32,424 nucleotides of DNA. It comes from an uncultured Desulfuromonadales bacterium. Lineage in GTDB: Bacteria > Desulfobacterota > Desulfuromonadia > Desulfuromonadales > Trichloromonadaceae. Shown piece after piece: positions 11,632 through 27,280 of the stretch. Numbering within the stretch: position 1 is the stretch's first letter; every line of letters starts with the position of its first letter. The notes under the pieces are model-generated. The model saw only the letters and a list, made by a program, of their open reading frames with translations. It was not told the origin of the DNA and searched no databases. The stretch is taken from the NCBI GenBank assembly GCA_945787465.1, contig CALZIZ010000080.1, positions 1 to 32,424 on the forward strand, read 5' to 3'. Position numbers and translations under genes: made by a program.

Positions 11632-12891
11632 TCAGGCGCCGTCCCGTCGCTGCAGTAGAATTAATTCGATATCGGCCAGGGGCAGTTCCTCCTGGGTGCC
11701 GCCATCCATGTCGCGCAGCACCGCCACCTGGCGGGCCAGTTCGTTTTCACCAAGGATCAACACCTGCCGGGCGTTGAACTTTCCGGCGCGGCGCAGCTGG
11801 GACTTGAGGCTTTTGCCCTCGTAATCCATCTCGGCCTGCATGCCCTGGCGCTGCAGTCGGGACATGAGCACGAAGGCGAGCTGCGCGGCCTCTTCGCCCA
11901 TGGCGGCCAGAAAGAGTTCGGGGCGTGGGGGCTGAACGCGTTTTTCGCCAAGCATCAGCACCAGCCGCTCGACGCCCATGGCAAAGCCGATTCCTGGCAG
12001 GGCTGGGCCCCCCAGGTCGCGGATCAGTCCGTCGTAACGGCCCCCGGCCGCTACCGCATTCTGCGCCCCCAGGCTGCCGGTGACCATTTCGAAGGCGGTT
12101 TTGGTGTAATAGTCGAGGCCGCGAACCATCCGGTCATTGACCGAAAAATCGATCTGCAGATCCTTAAGGTGGCGTTGAACCGCCGAAAATTGGTCATCGC
12201 AGCTCCCGCACAGGTGTTGGAGCACCGAAGGGGCCTGCCCGGTGGCCTCCTTGCAGGCCGGAACCTTACAGTCGAGCACCCGCAGCGGGTTCGATTCGTA
12301 GCGTCGACGACAGTCCGCGCACAGCGCATCGAGCTTGGATTTCAGGTAATCGAGCAAGGCGTTCCGGTAGCCTGGACGACACTCGGGGCAGCCCAGCGAG
12401 TTGATCTGAAGAGCGACGTCCTCGATGCCCACGGCCTCGAAGTAGTGGGCGAGCATGGCCAGAACCTGGGCATCGATCTTTGGGTCTTCGACACCGATGG
12501 CCTCGACGCCGATCTGGTGAAATTGGCGGTACCGACCTTTCTGGGGGCGTTCGTAGCGAAACATGGGGCCGGTATAGAAAAGTTTGGCGACGGGATCCTG
12601 CGAATAAAGCTTGTTCTGGATGAAGGACCTCATCACCGGCGCGGTTCCCTCGGGGCGAAGGGTCAGGGAATTGCCGCTTTTGTCCTCGAAGGTGTACATT
12701 TCCTTTTCCACGATGTCCGTGGTTTCGCCGATTGAGCGGCAGAAAAGTTCGGTCTTTTCGACCACCGGGACGCGGATCTCGGAAAAGCCGTAGGCCTTGA
12801 AAATCTTGCGCGCCTGTTCTTCGAGGAACTGCCAGGTCTCAATGTCGCCCGGCAGGATATCATTCATGCCTTTAATGCCTGTAATACTCAA
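11632..12891 (-). CDS. hisS: histidyl-tRNA synthetase
   Basis: Charges tRNA(His); class II synthetase, 419 residues, normal for bacteria (~420). Motifs seen are the N-terminal ITGIKGMNDILPGD, motif 2 (FRYERPQKGRYRQFHQIGVE), the HisA signature LDYYTKTAFE, and motif 3 (GIGFAMGVERLVLML). A C-terminal anticodon-binding domain covers the last ~95 residues. The start is TTG at 12891 with AAGGTGAGG 9 bases upstream; no ATG fits the conserved N-terminus as well. It lies 62 bases after the cyclase gene in the same direction. The Cys-rich stretch CPECRPGYR... CADCRRR is part of the family's insertion domain. Confidence 0.95.
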   Translation of the reverse strand: MSITGIKGMNDILPGDIETWQFLEEQARKIFKAYGFSEIRVPVVEKTELFCRSIGETTDIVEKEMYTFEDKSGNSLTLRPEGTAPVMRSFIQNKLYSQDPVAKLFYTGPMFRYERPQKGRYRQFHQIGVEAIGVEDPKIDAQVLAMLAHYFEAVGIEDVALQINSLGCPECRPGYRNALLDYLKSKLDALCADCRRRYESNPLRVLDCKVPACKEATGQAPSVLQHLCGSCDDQFSAVQRHLKDLQIDFSVNDRMVRGLDYYTKTAFEMVTGSLGAQNAVAAGGRYDGLIRDLGGPALPGIGFAMGVERLVLMLGEKRVQPPRPELFLAAMGEEAAQLAFVLMSRLQRQGMQAEMDYEGKSLKSQLRRAGKFNARQVLILGENELARQVAVLRDMDGGTQEELPLADIELILLQRRDGA

Positions 12892-12953: not shown

Positions 12954-14372
12954 TCAAATTCCGGATGGCTCTGGATTTTCCACGAGACCCTCGACCCGGT
13001 ACACGTCCACCGGCAGCTGCTTGCCCTTGAGCACCATAGGTTCCATCAGGGTCGCCTTGACCCAGGGGCCAACCTTCTCGTAGGTCGCCCCCGAGATCAG
13101 GACTTCGCCGGGGCTGGCGATGCCCTGCAGGCGGGCGGCCACATTGACATTGTCGCCGATCACAGTGTATTCCATTTTTGTCGCCGAGCCGATGTTGCCG
13201 GCGACCACCGGGCCGGTGTTGATGCCGATGCCCATGGCCAGGGAGGGCAAACCCCGGCTCTGCTGATGGCGGTTGAATGCCTCGACTTCGCGCTGCATGG
13301 CAAGCGCGCAGCGTACCGCCCTCAGGGGGTCGTCCCCCAGGGATACTGGGGCGCCGAACAGGGCCATCACCGAGTCGCCCATCAGCTTGTCGACCATGCC
13401 GTTGTTCTCAGATACGACCTGGATCATCCGGGTGAAATAATCATTAAGCAGCGACACGACCTCGGCTGGCGGCAGCCTTTCGGCAAGACCGGTAAAGCGC
13501 CGGATGTCTGAAAACAGGATGCTGACCTCTTTTTCTTCTCCCCCCAGGGTCAGTTGATCTTTATGCTTGAGGATCTCTTCAGCCAGGGGTTTGCTGACGT
13601 AACGTTCGAAGGTGTTACGCAAAAATTCCTTTTCCTGCAGGCTGATCGCCATCTGGTTGAAGGCGGTGGTCAGTACCCCCAGTTCGTCGCGGCGTTTGAG
13701 CTCGATGTGCTGATTGATCTGTCCTTCGCCAATGGCCCTTACCCCTCGGACCAGGGCATGCACAGGGCGCACGAAGATGCTCGCCAGGACAAAAGCAAGC
13801 AGGCTGCCCACCCCAAGGGCTGCAGCAGCCAATATCAGCAGGCGTCGGCGCATCTGGGCGATTTCCGCGTTGATCAGCTCTTCGGTCAGCCCCAGGTGTA
13901 TCTGACCAAGAAGGACAGGGTTTTTTGCCACCGAGAAGATCGGCACCTCCAGGTCAAGCAGGGAAACCCCGTCCAGGGCGGTGCGTACCACTCGATACCC
14001 TTCCTCAGCGGCCAGCGGTTGGGCGTCCGGAGCGGGGTCGAAACTTCTGCCGACCCTTGAGGTGTCGTCTGCTGCCCGGATGCGTCCCAGGTGGTCGACG
14101 ATCAGCGCATACCTTACGCCCGGAGATTTCCGGGCATTTTTGACGGCCGAAAAGAGATACAGGTCATCGCCGGTCAGCAGGGGGTCTTCGGCATTGAAGG
14201 CTATTCCGCGGGCGATGCCGAGCCCCTTGTCGATATTTTCCTTGATCAGGGTCTGGCGCATCTGCTGGCCGAGCAGCACCATGACTGCCAGCAGCAGGAT
14301 GCCTCCGAACAGGGCCAGCAGCAGGGCAAACCTGAAGCGCAGGCTGAAGATAAAGCGGATGCGTTCAGCCAT
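12954..14372 (-). CDS. membrane-bound class III adenylate/guanylate cyclase with HAMP domain
   Basis: Predicted to make cAMP (or cGMP) from NTP at the inner membrane. The 472 residues show TM1 (~12-34), a periplasmic sensor of ~140 residues, TM2 (~178-200), a HAMP linker (~200-255) and a class III catalytic domain (~275-455). Catalytic features seen are metal aspartate 289 in ILFSDIRRFTG, metal aspartate 333 in KLMGDSVMALFG with the preceding Lys, and the IGDNVNVAARLQ segment supplying transition-state Asn and Arg, so it looks active. It overlaps the TPR gene by 8 bases and is the third gene of the GGDEF-TPR-cyclase operon. The sensor ligand is unknown. Confidence 0.88.
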   Translation of the reverse strand: MAERIRFIFSLRFRFALLLALFGGILLLAVMVLLGQQMRQTLIKENIDKGLGIARGIAFNAEDPLLTGDDLYLFSAVKNARKSPGVRYALIVDHLGRIRAADDTSRVGRSFDPAPDAQPLAAEEGYRVVRTALDGVSLLDLEVPIFSVAKNPVLLGQIHLGLTEELINAEIAQMRRRLLILAAAALGVGSLLAFVLASIFVRPVHALVRGVRAIGEGQINQHIELKRRDELGVLTTAFNQMAISLQEKEFLRNTFERYVSKPLAEEILKHKDQLTLGGEEKEVSILFSDIRRFTGLAERLPPAEVVSLLNDYFTRMIQVVSENNGMVDKLMGDSVMALFGAPVSLGDDPLRAVRCALAMQREVEAFNRHQQSRGLPSLAMGIGINTGPVVAGNIGSATKMEYTVIGDNVNVAARLQGIASPGEVLISGATYEKVGPWVKATLMEPMVLKGKQLPVDVYRVEGLVENPEPSGI

Positions 14373-16845
14373 TGCCGAATTCCTTGATTTGCTTCAGTTT
14401 GCGCCGGGCCTTGTCGATATTCATGCGCGCCTTGTCATGGTCGGGCTGCAGGATCAGGACCCGGTCCCACAATGAGATGGCCTCTTCATACCGCCCCTGG
14501 GTATAAAATTCAATCCCTTTTAGGTACAGGCGTTGTTTATCCCCAGGCTGAAGGCCCGATTTTTTCAGCTCGGACAAGCGCTCCATCTCCTCGAGGGCCT
14601 TACGGTGGTAAGGGTCCATTGCGAGCAGTTTCTGCCAAAGAGCCCTGGCGCCTTCGATGTCCCCTGAAGCCAGGGCCTTTTTGCCCTGTCCCAGCAGTTC
14701 GCTTAATTGGCGGTCCATCCGCTGGTGGCCACGCTGCAGGCCCGCCAGGGCGTCTGGGTTGTCCGGGGCGGCATCGAGGATCTTCCGGTATGCGGCGAGG
14801 GACTCCTTGAGGTTTCCGGCTTCGAGAAGCTTTTCGGCGTTTGCCAGCTGCTGGCGGATCGAGCGGCCGGCCTGCTCCCTGATGTCCTGTTTTTCCTGCA
14901 GGGCCCAGGGGTTTTGCGGGTCCAGCCTCAGAACTTTTGCATATAGGGCCTCGGCCTGGCGGAAGTCCTCTTGTGCTGCGGCTTTGCGGGCAGCGTTCAA
15001 GAGGCGGTCAAGCCTGGTTTGCAGGACCTGCTCCAGGGCCTTCAGTTCCTGACGCACCCTGGGGGAGTCTTCTAGCTTCAGCGCCTGGTTGAAATGCCCG
15101 CGTCCTTCAGAGAAGCGGCCAGCGTCCCGGGCCTTGCGCCCTTTTTGCAAAAGGTCGGCGACTGTCGCATCGAGTTGGGCCTCGAGCGCCGTAAGGGCGG
15201 CACTGGCCCCTTGGTGGTTCGGGGCATGGGTGAGGGCCTGTTGCAGCAGGCTGCGGGCATCACGATAGCGGTGTCGGGCTTGCGCCCGGTGGGCCTGGGA
15301 AGTGGCCTCTTCGGCGAGTTGGAATCTGCGATTCTCAATGTCTTTCAGACCCTTCAGGGCCTCGGAGGTGTTCGGCGCAAGGGCGAGGGCTCGGTTCAGC
15401 GCCGCTTCGGCGGCTGAAAGTTTCCCTGTCTCCAGCAGTTTCAGGCCCTCAGCCAGGGCCAGGGTCAGGTCGTTTCTCAGCCTGGCCAATGCCTGTTGTT
15501 CAAGTTCGCCTCCCCCCGGAGAGTCGGGCACCAATTCAAGTCCATTGCGGACCAGTTCAAGGGCCTCGCCGGGGTGCTCGGCCTGCAGGGCTTGCCGGCT
15601 TTGGGTGAACCAGGTTTCTGCCTGGGCGCTCAGCATTGCCTCGGCCTCCTCAAGTCCTGTCCGGGCCCGCAATTCATCCGGCCGCAAATCCAGCGCTTGC
15701 TCGAAACGATGCCGGGCCTCAAGGGGATCCTTCTGCTCAAGCAGATTCTGGCCCTGGTCCAGCAGTTGCCGATAGGCACCTTGTTCGGCGGCGATCAGGT
15801 TGGCCGCGGCACTGCCAAGGGCGGGGTCGAGCTGCACGGCCCGGTTCAACAGGCTATAGGCGGCCTGGTATTCCTTGAGGGTCAGGTGGATTTTGCCGGC
15901 AAGAGCAAGGACCTTGGCTTCTGCGGCGGATTCACCGAGCAGCATAGAGAGGGTTTCAAGGGCGAGACGGGTTTTGCGCTGCTGCAACATGGTCAGTGCA
16001 GTGTTGTAAAGCATGGCCTGAATGCTCTGGCGGACTTCGCTTCGGGCCTTTGGGTAGGCCTGATTGAGTTTTTCCACCGATGCAACCAGTTGTCCCTGGG
16101 AATAATCGAGGTAACCCAGGTAATAGTCGGGCAGGGGGCTGGTCTGGTCGAGGGGGCGGGCTTTTTCAAATGCCTTCCGTGCTGCTGCATGGTCGCCATT
16201 TTCGAGCAGGCTGGTCCCCTGGTTCATGTGCAGGGCAAAGAGATACGCCCGGGTCGGCAGGTCGTTCGGGTCATGCTCCAGGTAGGTGGTGAAGTGGTTG
16301 AGGGCCAGGTCGTTACGGCCCTGCTTTGCATAAAGGTCTCCAAGCAGCCGGTGGACCTCCAGCCGGTTCGGAGCGAGCTCAAGCACTCGCTGAAAAAGCC
16401 CGGCAGCCTCATCGAGAGCCTGGTTGTCGAAAGCCCCGAGCGCCAGGTTGAAGTAGGCGTCAGCAAGGGGGTAAAGGTCGGGGGAGTCCAGGGCGCCGAG
16501 TTCTTCGGCTCTGTCGAGATAGAGCAGAGCGCTGTCGTAATCGCCGGTCCGGGTCAGGGCGAGGCCCAGGTTGTAGTTTGCCTCGATGGAGTCGGTGAAA
16601 GCCGGGTAGGCACGCCTGAATTCGACAATCGCCTCCTGGTCTTGTCCCTCAAGCAGCAGCGTCACCCCGAGAAAATAGTGCAGCGGCAGGTTGTCCGGAT
16701 CGACAGCCAGGGCGGCATGGTAGCGCTGGATCTGGAGGTTGGCCGTGCTTGGGGCAGGGGGGGCGGCATTCTGAGCGGGTGCGATGTCCGGAAGGAGGAT
16801 CGTCATGCCGCAGAGGATGGCCACGACGATGGTCCTCAGGCTCAT
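14365..16845 (-). CDS. exported TPR-repeat protein, 826 aa
   Basis: A long TPR solenoid with an N-terminal signal peptide (residues 1-24, ending APAQN) and no other membrane segment, so probably periplasmic. TPR units begin near residue 40 (LHYFLGVTLLLEGQDQEAIVEF) and recur to the C-terminus (YLKGIEFYTQGRYEEAISLW). At least ten are recognisable, and the middle section is more helical and degenerate with many AL/LEE repeats. The start ATG overlaps the GGDEF gene stop as ATGA, and the end overlaps the cyclase start by 8 bases. It could be a scaffold or ligand sensor for the membrane cyclase; that is inference from the operon. Confidence 0.85.
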   Translation of the reverse strand: MSLRTIVVAILCGMTILLPDIAPAQNAAPPAPSTANLQIQRYHAALAVDPDNLPLHYFLGVTLLLEGQDQEAIVEFRRAYPAFTDSIEANYNLGLALTRTGDYDSALLYLDRAEELGALDSPDLYPLADAYFNLALGAFDNQALDEAAGLFQRVLELAPNRLEVHRLLGDLYAKQGRNDLALNHFTTYLEHDPNDLPTRAYLFALHMNQGTSLLENGDHAAARKAFEKARPLDQTSPLPDYYLGYLDYSQGQLVASVEKLNQAYPKARSEVRQSIQAMLYNTALTMLQQRKTRLALETLSMLLGESAAEAKVLALAGKIHLTLKEYQAAYSLLNRAVQLDPALGSAAANLIAAEQGAYRQLLDQGQNLLEQKDPLEARHRFEQALDLRPDELRARTGLEEAEAMLSAQAETWFTQSRQALQAEHPGEALELVRNGLELVPDSPGGGELEQQALARLRNDLTLALAEGLKLLETGKLSAAEAALNRALALAPNTSEALKGLKDIENRRFQLAEEATSQAHRAQARHRYRDARSLLQQALTHAPNHQGASAALTALEAQLDATVADLLQKGRKARDAGRFSEGRGHFNQALKLEDSPRVRQELKALEQVLQTRLDRLLNAARKAAAQEDFRQAEALYAKVLRLDPQNPWALQEKQDIREQAGRSIRQQLANAEKLLEAGNLKESLAAYRKILDAAPDNPDALAGLQRGHQRMDRQLSELLGQGKKALASGDIEGARALWQKLLAMDPYHRKALEEMERLSELKKSGLQPGDKQRLYLKGIEFYTQGRYEEAISLWDRVLILQPDHDKARMNIDKARRKLKQIKEFGNG

Positions 16846-18218
16846 GGAGTTTGGATCTCCCGGGCTCCCCGGATAACATTGCGCACCTTTTTGCCTTCAT
16901 ACATGGCGCGGTCGGCCAGATCGATCATGCCACGTTTGTCGGTGGCGTTTTCAGGGAAGGTCGCGTAGCCGACGGTGCAGGTGAGGCGGGCATTGATGCC
17001 GTCTTCCGCCAAAAAGAGATGCTCCGCGATAGAGCTGCGGATTCTTTCGGCCACCACCGCTGCTCCCTGCGAGTCGGTTTCGACCAGCAGGGCGGTAAAC
17101 TCATCGCCGCCGTAGCGAAAAACAATGTCGACTTCGCGAACGCACTTCTGCAGCAGTACGGCGATCTCTTTAAGGGAATGGCTGCCGGCAAGATGGCCGT
17201 GGGTGTCGTTGACTTCCTTGAAGTGGTCGACGTCGATGAAGACCAGGGCAAATTCAAGGCCGTAACGTTCGGAACGGCGGATTTCCTGATTGAGAACGAT
17301 CTGCAGGTAGCGGTAGTTGTAGAGGCCGGTCAGATCGTCGGCATAAATCAGATCGCGGGCTCCCTGGTAGCGGTAGGCGTTTTCAAAGCCCAGGGCTGTC
17401 TGTTCAAAGAGAAAGGAGAGGTTGTCCTGGGGGATGGGCCGGGAAAAGTCTTTTTTAACGGGATTGAACAATACCAGGGCCCCCTTGATTTTCTTTTCGC
17501 AGCGCAGGGGCAGCAGGCAGACTGATTTCACGTTTTGGGGCCAATCGGGCGTCGGCGAAAGTTGCTTGTCGCTCAGATGGCAGATGCCGGCAAGACCCTT
17601 GAGGTTCGGCAGCAGAGCCTGCGCGAGGGTCAGAGCCTCGGCTTCATTCTGGCCTTCGGCACCGACAAGGCGGGAGATCTTGTTTTTCTCCAGCAAAAAG
17701 CCGAAACCACGGCCCTCGCTGCCGATTTCCTGAAGCAGGGTGGCGGTGGCCAGGGGCAGCAGACGGTCGATCTCCAGCATGGAGGCGAGATTCTGGCCCT
17801 TTTGAAACAAGCGGATCTGGGTCTTCAGCAGCAGGTTTTCATCGAGCAGGCGCCGTTGTTCAACACAGGTACGGACCAGGTGGCGGAGTTCTTCAGGGTC
17901 GAAGGGTTTGATCAGGTAGTCCCGGGCGCCGCTTTTGAGGGCCTGGATCGCTGTTTCGAGCGTGGCATGGCCGGTGGCCAGAATGACCTCCGGTGGGTTG
18001 TCGATGGCCCTGGCCAGGCGCAAAACCTCGAGCCCGCAGAGCCCGGGCATGACCATGTCGGTCAAGACCACGTCGACCCCGCCCTTGCTCAGTCGGGCCA
18101 ATGCTTCATCCCCGGAAGAAACCGCTTCGACATGGTAGCCATCCTCGCTTAACAGTTCTGCATAGAGGCGGCGAAAAAATAATTCATCGTCCACAACCAA
18201 GATGGTGGGCTTCTTCAT
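16842..18218 (-). CDS. REC-GGDEF response regulator, probable Hypr cGAMP synthase (GacA-like)
   Basis: A response regulator with a dinucleotide cyclase output, 458 residues. REC domain ~1-120 (VVDDE acidic pocket, Asp54 phosphoacceptor in VLTDMVMPG, K in LIKPFDPEEL). A GAF-like middle region spans ~150-285. The GGDEF domain is ~295-450 with intact YGGDEF and an RxxD inhibitory site (REVD) five residues upstream. Residue 346 is Ser in GHLAGSHSL, where canonical diguanylate cyclases have Asp (GHxxGD). This is the substitution that defines Hypr enzymes such as Geobacter GSU1658 (Ser347), which makes 3',3'-cGAMP. The start at 18218 is chosen over 18314 because GGGAG lies 9 bases upstream and MKKPTILVVDDE begins the REC domain. 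It is first of three overlapping genes. Confidence 0.9.
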   Translation of the reverse strand: MKKPTILVVDDELFFRRLYAELLSEDGYHVEAVSSGDEALARLSKGGVDVVLTDMVMPGLCGLEVLRLARAIDNPPEVILATGHATLETAIQALKSGARDYLIKPFDPEELRHLVRTCVEQRRLLDENLLLKTQIRLFQKGQNLASMLEIDRLLPLATATLLQEIGSEGRGFGFLLEKNKISRLVGAEGQNEAEALTLAQALLPNLKGLAGICHLSDKQLSPTPDWPQNVKSVCLLPLRCEKKIKGALVLFNPVKKDFSRPIPQDNLSFLFEQTALGFENAYRYQGARDLIYADDLTGLYNYRYLQIVLNQEIRRSERYGLEFALVFIDVDHFKEVNDTHGHLAGSHSLKEIAVLLQKCVREVDIVFRYGGDEFTALLVETDSQGAAVVAERIRSSIAEHLFLAEDGINARLTCTVGYATFPENATDKRGMIDLADRAMYEGKKVRNVIRGAREIQTP

Positions 18219-18274: not shown

Positions 18275-20686
18275 TCAACGGAAAAGGCCTTTTTGCCAGC
18301 TGCTGGCCCGCCACCCGGAGCCGTCGCTGAGAAACCGCAGGGTGCCCTGCAGGTCGGTGCGGTAAATGGTCGTATGGTTGCGAATGAAGGTGCTGACGAC
18401 CTCGGGGTGGGGCAGCCCGTAAGAGTTGTTGTATCCGGCCGAGATAAAGGCGATCTGGGGGGTGAGCCGTTGGGCAAGCAATCCGGGTGAAGAATGGCGG
18501 CTGCCGTGGTGGGGTACCTTCAGCAGGGTTATGGCCTGGTCGGGCATCTCTTTAAGCAGCCAGGTAATGCCCTCGGTCTCGAGATCGCCGGTCAGCAGGA
18601 CTGCATCCTTTCCGGTGCGGGCGTAAACCGCGAGGGAGCGGTCATTGGCCGAGCTGGCCCCCTGTGGGGGGACGTACAGGGCCAGGGCACTTCCGGAAGA
18701 ATCCTCAAGGGCGGTCCAGCCTTGGGCAAAGCAGGTCCGGGGGATGTTCCTTTCAACCACGGCTTTGTGCAGTGACCAGTTCAGGTTCTGAGCGGGGATC
18801 GCGCTCCAGAAAGCCTTTACCGGAAAATGCTCGAGGATGTAACCGAGCCCCTTGCGGTGGTCGGGGTGGTCGTGGGTCAGGATGACCGCCTCGAGTTCGT
18901 GAACCCCCAGCCGCCCCAAGGCCGGCGCGACCAGGCGTTCGCCGACATCGAAGGTGTCGCTGCGTAAGCCTCCGCCATCGATCAGAAAATGACGGCCGTC
19001 CGGCAGGCTGAGCAAAGTCGCATCGCCCTGGCCAACGCTCAGGGCAATCACCCGCAGGTTGCCTGAAGCAGAGAACGGGTCGGTCAGGAGAAGGCCGGAT
19101 GCTGCCAGCAGAATCAACGTCCCCGGGCGTTTCATCAGCCGTGAAAGGGGCAGAAGCAGCAGGCCGACCAGCAGAAAGACTCCACCCGTCTGGACCGGCG
19201 ACAGGTGCAGGGTCCAGCCGCCCATGCCGGGCAGGTGAAGGGCCCAGTCGACCATGGCTTCGAGGCCCCTGACCGTCTGTGCGCAGATGAAGAAAAGGGC
19301 GCCGGCCGCAGGGGGCCAGACGGTGGTCAGCAGCGCCCCGCCAAGACCGAGAGGGATCGCCACCAGGCCGATCAGGGGGACTGCGGCCAGGTTGGTGATC
19401 AATCCCGCCGGGGCCAGGGCGTGAAACTGGACGAGTGCCAAGGGGGCGGTGGCCAGGGTTGCGGCCAGGGTGGTGAGCAGCAGCGTCGTTAAATGCCGAA
19501 TCGGCCCGGGAAGGGGGGGCACGCTACTCTGCCAGCGGGGAACCCAGACCAGTATCCCCAGAAGACCTGCGCAGGAGAGCTGAAAAGACGGTTGGTACAG
19601 GGCCAGGGGGTCGAAAACGAGAATGATGAATGCGGCGGCGAGCAGAGCTCTGATGGGTGAGGTTCGGCGGGATAGCAGCAACAGCAGCGCGCCGGCCAGG
19701 ATCATGAAAAAGGCCCGCCGCGTCGGCAGGGCGCCCCCGGTAAAGATCAGGTAGCCAAGCAGAAGCGGCATCATCATCAGCGGCAGGTAGCGACGCGGCG
19801 GGCCGAGCTGCAACAGGCGGTCGCTGAGGCAGTAGCCAAAACGGCACAGGGCGTAAAGCAGCGCGCAAACCATGCCAAAATGGAAGCCGGATATTGAGAA
19901 GAGGTGGGCGACCCCGCCGCGGGCCAGCATGCTGCGCTGGGTGGCGGGGATACTGTTTTTCTCGCCGATGACCAGGGCCTTGACCAGGGGAGCCTGTTCG
20001 GTCGTTGCCGTTTTGTCGATAAGCTGGGCCACCCTCAGTCGCAGCCGTTGCAGGGCAAAGTGAATTCGGTCTTTAGGCCCGGCGGGAAAAACTGCGATAT
20101 CGCTTGCTGAAGAGACAAAGGCGGTGGCGAAAATTTTCGACCCTGCAAGGTGCCTTGCGAAAGAAAATTCACCCGGGGTTCCAAAGGGGCGCGGAGCCCT
20201 GAGCCTGCTCCTGAAGCGGATTCGGTCTCCAGGAGCAAGGGGCAGGCCTGCGTCGTCGACATAAATGCGCAACGTTCCGCTGGCCGGGGCGGCAATGCCG
20301 TTTGCCCCCACCCGGGTCGCTTCGAGATCGATCAGGGCCTTTCCGCCGGCCCGGTCGACGCTCGTCAGCACAGAGCCCTCGATGGTAACTGGCTGCTCGC
20401 CGACGAAGCTGCTGATATGTCCCGGAATCGAAGGGGGCCTCAGGTGCAGGTGGGAAAGGGAGATGCCGAAGAGAAGAAAAAAGGCGCCCAGCAGCAGGCC
20501 GGCAAACCGCCTCCGGCGCAGCAACGCCCATAGCAGGGCCACCCCTACCGGGGCCAGAAGCCATGGACTGCTGGGGCTAAGATAAGGGGCGATGGCCAAT
20601 CCCAGGCCAAAGGCCGCAAGAAAGGCAGGCAGCCCCAAAGAATTACCTTCCGGCCGCCAGCGCAGCAAGCAGGGAGAGGAACTCAT
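18275..20686 (-). CDS. comEC: DNA internalisation competence protein ComEC/Rec2
   Basis: Inner-membrane channel for single-stranded DNA uptake, about 800 residues as usual for the three-domain form. N-terminal DUF4131 region with several membrane helices and an OB-like segment (residues ~1-220). The Competence domain is ~240-510 (ARGGVAHLFSISGFHFGMVCALL; FTGGALPTRRAFFM). A C-terminal metallo-beta-lactamase domain (~560-800) has LSVGQGDATLLSLP, the metal motif THDHPDH, LLTGDLE and PHHGSRHSS, so the nuclease-like site is intact. The listed ATG overlaps the upstream gene by 44 bases and has a weak ribosome site; TTG at 20638, 7 bases after GGAAGG, may be the real start. The REC-GGDEF gene begins 56 bases downstream. 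Confidence 0.93.
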   Translation of the reverse strand: MSSSPCLLRWRPEGNSLGLPAFLAAFGLGLAIAPYLSPSSPWLLAPVGVALLWALLRRRRFAGLLLGAFFLLFGISLSHLHLRPPSIPGHISSFVGEQPVTIEGSVLTSVDRAGGKALIDLEATRVGANGIAAPASGTLRIYVDDAGLPLAPGDRIRFRSRLRAPRPFGTPGEFSFARHLAGSKIFATAFVSSASDIAVFPAGPKDRIHFALQRLRLRVAQLIDKTATTEQAPLVKALVIGEKNSIPATQRSMLARGGVAHLFSISGFHFGMVCALLYALCRFGYCLSDRLLQLGPPRRYLPLMMMPLLLGYLIFTGGALPTRRAFFMILAGALLLLLSRRTSPIRALLAAAFIILVFDPLALYQPSFQLSCAGLLGILVWVPRWQSSVPPLPGPIRHLTTLLLTTLAATLATAPLALVQFHALAPAGLITNLAAVPLIGLVAIPLGLGGALLTTVWPPAAGALFFICAQTVRGLEAMVDWALHLPGMGGWTLHLSPVQTGGVFLLVGLLLLPLSRLMKRPGTLILLAASGLLLTDPFSASGNLRVIALSVGQGDATLLSLPDGRHFLIDGGGLRSDTFDVGERLVAPALGRLGVHELEAVILTHDHPDHRKGLGYILEHFPVKAFWSAIPAQNLNWSLHKAVVERNIPRTCFAQGWTALEDSSGSALALYVPPQGASSANDRSLAVYARTGKDAVLLTGDLETEGITWLLKEMPDQAITLLKVPHHGSRHSSPGLLAQRLTPQIAFISAGYNNSYGLPHPEVVSTFIRNHTTIYRTDLQGTLRFLSDGSGWRASSWQKGLFR

Positions 20687-24602: not shown

Positions 24603-24748
24603 ATGTTTTTGATCCGGAACAATGGTTCTTCCAGCGCTCGACCGTGCTTTGCTTGGTTGAAAATGCAGCTGGTTCAGGTGATTTAGGAACACTCGGGCGA
24701 CGGGGACGGGAGCCGTTCACGTCGCAATATTTGAAATGGAGGAGAGAA

Positions 24749-27280
24749 ATGATCGAAGCTTATCTGAAGCACCAAGAGGAGCGTAATGCCCAGGGCATTC
24801 CCGCGCTGCCTCTTAACCCCGAGCAGACCGCCGAGCTGTGCAAACTGCTGCAGGCGCCCCCCGCGGGCAAAGAAGAGTTTCTTCTCAACCTGCTCAAAGA
24901 TCGCGTTTCCCCCGGCGTCGACCCCGCCGCCGAAGTCAAGGCCGCCTTCCTCGGCGAGATCCTCGTCGGCAAGGCCAGCTCGCCCCTGATCAACAAGATC
25001 GACGCCGTCAAGATCCTCGGCACCATGATCGGTGGCTACAACGTGCAGCCTCTGATTGAGGCCCTCAAGGACGCTGAGCTCGCCGAAGAGGCCGCCTGCG
25101 CCCTCTCCGGCCTGACCTACGTCTATGACGCCGCCGCCGAGGTCATCGAGCTCTCCAAGAGCAACGCCGCGGCCAAGAAGGTCGTCGAGAGCTGGGCCGC
25201 CGCCGAGTGGTTTACCAATAAAGCCGGCGTTCCCGAGACCATCACCGTCAAGGTCTTCAAGGTCGAAGGCGAGATCAACACCGACGACTTCTCCCCCGCA
25301 GGAGATGCCTGGAGCCGCCCCGACATCCCCCTGCACGGCCTGGCCATGGGCAAGACCCGCTTCCCCGGCGGCATCCAGGAGATCGCCAAGTGGCGCGAAG
25401 CAGGCCACCAGGTCGCTTTCGTCGGCGACGTGGTCGGAACCGGCTCCTCCCGCAAGTCGGCCTGCAACAGCGTGCTCTGGTACATCGGTGATGACATCCC
25501 CTGCGTGCCCAACAAGCGTCGCGGCGGCGTCATTATCGGCAGCGTCATTGCCCCGATCTTCTTCAACACCGCTCAGGACTCCGGCGCTCTGCCGTTGCGC
25601 ATGGACGTTACCAAGCTCGGCATGGGTGACGTGATCACCATCAACACCGCCAAGGGCGAGGTCACCAACGAAGCTGGCGAAATCGTTTCGACCTTCGACA
25701 TCAAGCCGAACACCGTGCCTGACGAGTTCCAGGCGGGGGGCCGTATCCCCCTGATTATCGGTCGCTCGCTCACCACCGAGGCCTGCGAGGCCCTCGGCAA
25801 AGGTGAGCCTGAGATCTTCGCCAAGCCGGACAACCCGACCCCCAAGGCCGGTCAGGGCTACTCCCAGGCGCAGAAGATGGTCGGTCGCGCCTGCGGCGTC
25901 GAGGGCATTCTCCCCGGCACCGCCTGTGAGCCGATCATGACCACTGTCGGTTCCCAGGACACCACCGGCCCGATGACCGCCGACGAGATCAAGGAGCTGG
26001 CCTGCCTGCGCTTCAAGTCCCCGATGGTCATGCAGTCGTTCTGTCACACCGCTGCTTATCCCAAGCCGGCCGATGTGAAGATGCACGCCAACCTGCCCAA
26101 GTTCATCGCCGAGCGCGCCGGCGTGCCCCTGCGTCCCGGCGACGGGGTCATCCACAGCTGGCTGAACCGCCTGTTGGTACCCGACACCGTCGGCACCGGT
26201 GGTGACTCCCACACCCGTTTCCCCATCGGCATCAGCTTCCCCGCCGGTTCGGGCCTGGTCGCCTTCGGCGGCGCCCTCGGCTTCATGCCCCTCGACATGC
26301 CCGAGTCGGTGCTGGTTCGCTTCAAGGGCGAGCTCAACGAAGGCATCACCCTGCGTGACGCCGTCAACGCCATCCCCTACTGGGCCATCAAGCAGGGCCA
26401 TCTGACCGTTCCCAAGAAGAACAAGGTTAACATCTTCAACGGCCGCATCCTCGAGATGGAAGGTCTTCCCGACCTCTCCGTCGAGCAGGCGTTTGAGCTG
26501 ACCGACGCCGCCGCCGAGCGCTCCGCCGCTGCCGGCTGCATCCAGCTCTCCGAAGAGTCGGTCTGCACCTACCTGCGCTCCAACGTCGCTCTGATGAAGA
26601 AGATGATCGCCGATGGATACCAGGACCCCGAGACCCTGCAGAACCGCATCGATGCCGTAAACGAGTGGCTGAAGGAGCCCAAGCTGCTCAAGGCCGACGC
26701 CAGCGCCGAGTACGCCGCGGTCATCGAGATCGACCTGGCCGAGATCACCGAGCCGATCCTGGCCTGCCCCAACGATCCCGATGACGTCAAGCTCCTCAGC
26801 GATGTTGCAGGCACTCCGATCCAGGACGTTTTCCTCGGATCCTGCATGACCAACATCGGCCACTTCCGCGCCGCCGCCGAGATCTGGCGCGGCCAGAAGT
26901 TCAACCCCAGCATCCGCACCTGGATCTGCCCCCCGACCCGCATGGATCAGGAAAAGCTCAAGGAAGAAGCGGCATTCTCGGTTTACAGCGCCATGGGCGC
27001 CCGCATCGAGATCGCCGGTTGCTCTTTATGCATGGGTAATCAGGCCCGCGTGCCCGACGGGGTGAACATGTTCTCCACCTCGACCCGTAACTTCGATGAC
27101 CGTATCGGCAACGGCGCCAAGGTTTACCTCGGCTCCGCCGAACTCGGCGCCGTGACCTCCAACATGGGCAAACTCCCCACCCCGGCCGAGTACCTGGCCG
27201 TGTACAAGGAGAAGGTCGCGCCGAAGAAGGACGAGATCTACCAGTACCTGCAGTTCGATGAAATGGAAGGCTACAAGTAA
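24749..27280 (+). CDS. acnB: aconitate hydratase B (bifunctional)
   Basis: Isomerises citrate and isocitrate through a [4Fe-4S] cluster in the TCA cycle, and may also act on 2-methylcitrate-derived substrate. The 843 residues fit AcnB (865 in E. coli). The order is AcnB-type: N-terminal HEAT-like helical domain (~1-155), swivel domain (~165-380, EGEINTDDFSPAGDAW), then the catalytic domains. Cluster ligands are Cys699 (FLGSCMTNIGH), Cys758 and Cys761 (CSLCMGNQ), each offset by 11 from E. coli Cys710, 769 and 772. The ORF track start is 35 residues early; ATG at 24749 follows GGAGGAGAG. It is transcribed alone, between the operator-bearing promoter and a terminator. The 726-residue minus-strand ORF is a shadow. 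Confidence 0.97.
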   Translation: MIEAYLKHQEERNAQGIPALPLNPEQTAELCKLLQAPPAGKEEFLLNLLKDRVSPGVDPAAEVKAAFLGEILVGKASSPLINKIDAVKILGTMIGGYNVQPLIEALKDAELAEEAACALSGLTYVYDAAAEVIELSKSNAAAKKVVESWAAAEWFTNKAGVPETITVKVFKVEGEINTDDFSPAGDAWSRPDIPLHGLAMGKTRFPGGIQEIAKWREAGHQVAFVGDVVGTGSSRKSACNSVLWYIGDDIPCVPNKRRGGVIIGSVIAPIFFNTAQDSGALPLRMDVTKLGMGDVITINTAKGEVTNEAGEIVSTFDIKPNTVPDEFQAGGRIPLIIGRSLTTEACEALGKGEPEIFAKPDNPTPKAGQGYSQAQKMVGRACGVEGILPGTACEPIMTTVGSQDTTGPMTADEIKELACLRFKSPMVMQSFCHTAAYPKPADVKMHANLPKFIAERAGVPLRPGDGVIHSWLNRLLVPDTVGTGGDSHTRFPIGISFPAGSGLVAFGGALGFMPLDMPESVLVRFKGELNEGITLRDAVNAIPYWAIKQGHLTVPKKNKVNIFNGRILEMEGLPDLSVEQAFELTDAAAERSAAAGCIQLSEESVCTYLRSNVALMKKMIADGYQDPETLQNRIDAVNEWLKEPKLLKADASAEYAAVIEIDLAEITEPILACPNDPDDVKLLSDVAGTPIQDVFLGSCMTNIGHFRAAAEIWRGQKFNPSIRTWICPPTRMDQEKLKEEAAFSVYSAMGARIEIAGCSLCMGNQARVPDGVNMFSTSTRNFDDRIGNGAKVYLGSAELGAVTSNMGKLPTPAEYLAVYKEKVAPKKDEIYQYLQFDEMEGYK

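Follow-up and report, generated by a model that had tools for sequence, protein, structure and literature searches.

A probable GacA ortholog of the Hypr GGDEF type in a Trichloromonadaceae bacterium and two candidate cGAMP riboswitches ahead of non-cytochrome genes

Hypr enzymes are reported to make up about 0.17% of GGDEF domains (PMC9140294). The closest described system is GacA of Geobacter (GSU1658; Gmet_1914, structures 5VS9 and 6d9m). In the GacA structure Ser348 of the G. metallireducens protein touches the Watson-Crick face of the base (PMC6456294), and mutation of the serine to aspartate makes GacA a pure diguanylate cyclase (PMC6456294, PMC9140294). The specificity of Hypr enzymes is loose, and c-di-GMP and c-di-AMP can be made as well (PMC6456294, PMC9140294). 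Ser-type Hypr enzymes require GGDE[F/Y], and 94% of the predicted diguanylate cyclases have an Arg at the cross-dimer position (PMC6456294). Two further systems from other lineages and with other phenotypes were compared by description: Bd0367 of Bdellovibrio, likewise a Hypr GGDEF protein with serine (PMC9140294), and the Hypr enzymes GacA and GacB of Myxococcus (PMC8844925). Ligand preference of the GEMM-I riboswitches depends on position 20 in Vc2 numbering, where G goes with c-di-GMP and A with cGAMP; a c-di-GMP riboswitch with the change G20A becomes able to bind cGAMP (PMC6274999). This position is a selectivity factor and no hard filter (PMC9262584). We read A14 of the cGAMP riboswitch structure as its equivalent.

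We analysed a stretch of 32,424 nucleotides (the window) that encodes a REC-GGDEF protein of 458 amino acids on the minus strand (16842..18218). The gene starts with the ATG at 18218, ends with the stop codon at 16842-16844 and shows GGGAGA upstream of the ATG. With this start the serine discussed below is residue 346, as the preliminary description had it, whereas the 490-aa mechanical ORF (GTG 18314) would make it residue 378; the ORF coordinates and motifs given there were also right. All features of the protein lie on the minus strand. The receiver domain spans residues 6-115 (17874..18203; Pfam PF00072) with the phospho-acceptor D54 (codon 18057..18059), and the GGDEF domain spans residues 292-444 (16887..17345; PF00990). 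The unassigned middle part sits in a GAF-like position; Pfam called a GAF domain in only 1 of the 16 aligned members, and GAF is named in the molecule title of 6d9m. The selectivity motif reads NDTHGHLAGSHSL, in which Ser346 (codon 17181..17183; S347 in GSU1658) replaces the Asp of diguanylate cyclases. We found the GGDEF motif (residues 370-374, 17097..17111), Asn337 and the I-site R361-E-V-D364 (17127..17138) with R392 intact, in agreement with what had been claimed for GGDEF and the RxxD I-site.

Of the solved structures in the PDB, 6d9m, which shows the GacA GGDEF domain from G. metallireducens, is the closest match (E=9e-57). The alignment covers 154 residues without a gap and places Ser346 on Gm Ser348 and Tyr302 (codon 17313..17315) on Gm Tyr304, the cross-dimer residue. 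Serine at the guanine-contacting position was thereby confirmed, as Ser falls on Ser and there is no Asp. For full-length GSU1658, 6d9m and the Geobacter-like genome G161 served as stand-ins. Relatives came from 118 searched genomes belonging to the order, and 89 full-length proteins besides that of the window were aligned. Ser346, Asn337, Asp329, G370, G371, D372, E373, R361, D364 and R392 are invariant in 89/89 relatives and the receiver Asp54 is kept in 88/89. Chance or a sequencing error as the origin of Ser346 is ruled out by the serine in every one of these relatives, and the invariance of the Hypr residues points to strong selection on the signature. Position 302 is variable: Y in 40, H in 39, Q in 4, F in 2 and L, V, S and N in one relative each, with Arg in none; taken by itself it is not diagnostic, since His or Gln also occurs at this position in some Asp-type GGDEF domains of the genome. 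The protein thus combines Ser for the guanine-contacting Asp (PleD D344), where Hypr domains have Ser or Thr, GGDEF rather than GGEEF together with that serine, in agreement with the rule for Ser enzymes (PMC6456294), and a cross-dimer residue other than Arg. Its placement among the Hypr GGDEF proteins is well supported by these residues, and the non-Arg residue would favour cGAMP. We infer 3',3'-cGAMP as the main product.

The genome has 45 matches to PF00990. Among the domains with a readable motif, serine together with a canonical GGDEF occurs in the window protein only, and many others carry Asp at the selectivity position. Two further Ser proteins (L283 and L284) have GGDDY/GGDDF and appear from their sequence to be HAMP-like membrane proteins. 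By look only, they resemble GSU1937, the second Hypr protein of G. sulfurreducens, a HAMP membrane protein with GGDDF (PMC8835794); GSU1937 shares the serine with the window protein but differs in its HAMP domain and GGDDF.

We placed the protein in a maximum-likelihood tree built from 56 GGDEF domains. It fell into a clade with Gmet_1914 and the relatives of the order (support 98/91), and those GGDEF domains of its own genome that were included fell outside this clade. Relatives from other lineages (L044 from Silvanigrella and L046 from Myxococcales) are only about 33% identical. The gene neighbourhood agrees with the tree. A comEC-like competence gene (18275..20686, minus strand; PF03772) is the upstream neighbour in the same direction and is kept beside gacA across the class: comEC adjoins gacA, followed by hisS, in 8/8 compared genomes and for L042. 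Among these are four genomes from outside the order (G157, G161, G186 and G261). One of these, G157, has a domain 94% identical to the Gmet_1914 stretch, from which we take its family f24 to be probably Geobacteraceae. The window differs from GacA of Geobacter in having two genes between gacA and hisS, a TPR-repeat gene (14365..16845, minus strand), the ATG of which overlaps the gacA stop (ATGA), and a gene for an sCache-HAMP class III adenylate/guanylate cyclase (12954..14372, minus strand). Both are also found in G020 and G049. Domain searches and synteny identified hisS at 11632..12891 (minus strand), and a domain search placed acnB at 24644..27280 (plus strand). Both genes are indeed nearby, as the preliminary description had pointed out, but they are not adjacent: hisS lies downstream, separated from gacA by two genes, and acnB on the other side. 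In G157 and G161, two Geobacter-like genomes, acnB is the gene next to hisS. The nearly identical residue number, also put forward for orthology, is true but weak alone; the argument rests on the alignment, the tree and the synteny.

The match of Ser to Ser in 6d9m, the invariant residues, the position in the GacA clade and the comEC-gacA-hisS order argue for a GacA ortholog, i.e. for an enzyme of a kind already known. The REC-middle-GGDEF layout, the serine with GGDEF, the Tyr at the cross-dimer position, the I-site and the comEC-gacA-hisS surroundings are all shared with GacA of Geobacter or Geobacter-like genomes. We regard the orthology to GSU1658/Gmet_1914 as well supported by these sequence comparisons. 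A recent acquisition of gacA was considered and dropped, as both the conservation and the gene order speak for vertical inheritance.

Searching the genome with RF01051 we found ten GEMM-I riboswitches. Vc2 position 20 corresponds to Rfam position 11. We located it by counting from the start of each match without allowing gaps, a reading that we checked against the Rfam alignments for the riboswitches of this genome. Two of them carry A at position 20 (leaders L222 and L223; C188:6678-6762 and C110:8530-8607) and eight carry G. For comparison, A20 occurred in 17/19 riboswitches of the Geobacter-like control genome G161, where the genes behind such switches include a pilM-like gene and genes for multiheme cytochromes. 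The two A20 riboswitches resemble Geobacter GEMM-Ib in the A at position 20, in A47 and in a terminator-like hairpin downstream; they differ in that A20 is followed by GC and not CU, in their targets and in being only 2/10. Across the gacA-carrying genomes of the order 18/60 riboswitches have A20, compared to 0/10 in family f18, which lacks gacA and has G20 throughout (p=0.054); with G161 added the contrast reaches p=0.005. Since f18 is a single clade, the absence of A20 there is weakly consistent with a link between gacA and A20. GEMM-I riboswitches were looked for and not found in the gacA carriers G002, G004, G006 and G054, and thus riboswitches cannot be the sole output of gacA in the order.

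The predominance of G20 (8/10, c-di-GMP type) speaks for the first alternative, namely that the enzyme is promiscuous with c-di-GMP as its main product in the cell and cGAMP as a by-product. Hypr enzymes do yield mixtures in vitro, and Cabther_A1065 and Ddes1475 make more c-di-GMP (PMC6456294). However, these two enzymes have Arg at the cross-dimer position, whereas the window protein has Tyr302 like GacA and Arg occurs in 0/89 relatives, and the many other Asp-type GGDEF domains of the genome could supply c-di-GMP. We consider this explanation improbable.

The reading that we prefer, with a probability of roughly 0.87, is that the window gene encodes a GacA ortholog, a Hypr GGDEF enzyme making mainly 3',3'-cGAMP that is most likely read by the two A20 GEMM-I riboswitches. 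In the proposed mechanism the protein would act as a dimer, in which each GGDEF domain would bind ATP or GTP via Ser346 and Asn337 and the GGDEF motif would hold Mg. Linkage of the bound pair would yield cyclic dinucleotides, for the most part 3',3'-cGAMP, and the REC domain and product feedback at the intact I-site would probably tune the activity. The two A20 riboswitches would then most likely read cGAMP and act on the terminator, with ligand and direction of switching both being predictions.

Downstream of leader L223 we found a gene for a REC-GAF-HD-GYP protein, in which the HD and HHExxDGxGYP motifs are present, and then one for a 2160-aa Calx-beta/cadherin adhesin. Leader L222 is followed by an ORF for a 706-aa lipoprotein-like product. 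In both leaders a G+C-rich inverted repeat and a T run lie ahead of the ORF. The RNA fold of L222 contains a terminator hairpin, and in the minimum-energy structure of L223 the terminator region is paired otherwise; neither fold is proof of switching. At E<=1e-90 the HD-GYP protein has a relative in only one of the 118 genomes searched, the related complete genome G020 (59%). An A20 riboswitch between two tandem REC-GAF-HD-GYP genes occurs in this genome and in G020, where a relative of the adhesin also follows (35% over 349 aa) and a second A20 leader precedes a gene for a GGDEF-EAL protein (L288). The likely cGAMP outputs are, to judge by these leaders, the cyclic-dinucleotide phosphodiesterase, the adhesin and the lipoprotein-like gene. 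Since HD-GYP enzymes can degrade cGAMP, as PmxA of Myxococcus does (PMC8844925), feedback is plausible, and the wiring suggests that cGAMP may act back on cyclic-dinucleotide turnover.

The preliminary description had further proposed GEMM-Ib riboswitches through which the enzyme would control extracellular electron transfer. The GacA ortholog and A20 switches (2/10) do exist, but no A20 switch lies before cytochrome or pil genes, and the octaheme cytochromes behind L225 and L226 have G20 leaders of the c-di-GMP type. The regulon thus differs from that of GacA in Geobacter in being mostly G20, with A20 before the HD-GYP/adhesin and lipoprotein-like genes, and for this reason the electron-transfer role known from Geobacter should not be transferred to this bacterium. 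We would go further only tentatively and at somewhat less than even odds: the pathway may have been rewired such that rising cGAMP turns on the HD-GYP phosphodiesterase and the adhesin via the A20 switch, with feedback or cross-talk, and the cytochromes would answer to c-di-GMP. If so, related octaheme-cytochrome genes switched riboswitch ligand between species. Their leaders are G20 here, in G020 and in G014 and A20 in G047 (40-45% identity between genomes), which suggests such a change, the genes being paralogs with putative orthology.

A second alternative, slightly less probable than the first, is a contaminating contig, so that gacA and the riboswitches may stem from different organisms. 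The contamination of the assembly is 6.27%, the GGDEF genes L028 and L029 are near-duplicates, and gacA is 79% identical to that of G020, a genome of another family, compared to 62-65% for genus g2 of its own family. The neighbouring genes, however, are almost as close to the own-family genome G005 as to G020 (hisS 77 vs 79%, aspS 75 vs 77%), and the HD-GYP riboswitch locus on a separate contig has its only close relative in G020 too, so both contigs agree. That the GGDEF domain is catalytically silent and serves as a c-di-GMP receptor is hardly credible: the I-site residues are invariant in the relatives and c-di-GMP was bound to GacA on purification (PMC6456294), but the catalytic D329, N337, G370, G371, D372 and E373 are equally invariant in the 89 relatives, and GacA, a close homolog, has activity.

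The kind of enzyme is thus known, and what is particular here are the likely cGAMP switches before phosphodiesterase, adhesin and lipoprotein genes and not before electron-transfer cytochromes. In some gacA carriers no GEMM-I riboswitch was detected, and in others A20 switches lie before non-cytochrome genes; the enzyme is thus retained as its outputs vary. This makes the role of cGAMP outside Geobacter testable. With gacA present in nearly all sampled families of the order and its serine invariant, cGAMP signalling would be ancient in the class and vertically inherited, rather than peculiar to Geobacter.

In the window, gacA (the predicted cGAMP synthase gene) and hisS are separated by genes for a TPR protein and an sCache-HAMP class III nucleotidyl cyclase (12954-16845). 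The same insertion is present in genomes G020 and G049, and the gacA locus is probably one operon with two nucleotide-signal enzymes.

A cGAMP-type (A20) GEMM-I riboswitch flanked by two tandem REC-GAF-HD-GYP genes and followed by an adhesin gene was observed in two genera, in our own assembly (C110:6578-10160, leader L223) and in G020 (C1:3273227-3276518). Among related octaheme cytochrome genes the leader carries A20 in G047 (L302), whereas G20 was found in our own genome (L225 and L226), G020 (L289) and G014 (L270); judging from position 20, the riboswitch ligand may have switched among these relatives. Two further GEMM-I riboswitches have C20, in place of the G of the c-di-GMP type or the A of the cGAMP type: L292 (G020:C1:230820-230913, minus strand) and L384 (G034:C1:1137077-1137166, minus strand).

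Two membrane proteins whose selectivity residue is Ser and whose motif reads GGDDY/GGDDF (L283:2535-3869 and L284:1935-3236, both minus strand) resemble GSU1937, the second Hypr enzyme of G. sulfurreducens, and in a REC-GGDEF relative (L043, JAABSF010000166.1) the selectivity residue is Arg (GHLIGRMVL) with GGDEF intact. The GGDEF genes L028 and L029 of our own assembly (contigs C160 and C263) are near-duplicates, perhaps from strain mixture or contamination.

In family f18 of the same order (e.g. G042, G052 and G018) we found no gacA ortholog, and GEMM-I riboswitches are scarce or absent. G002, G004, G006 and G054 all retain gacA and no GEMM-I riboswitch was found in them, so these four genomes must have a different cGAMP receptor.
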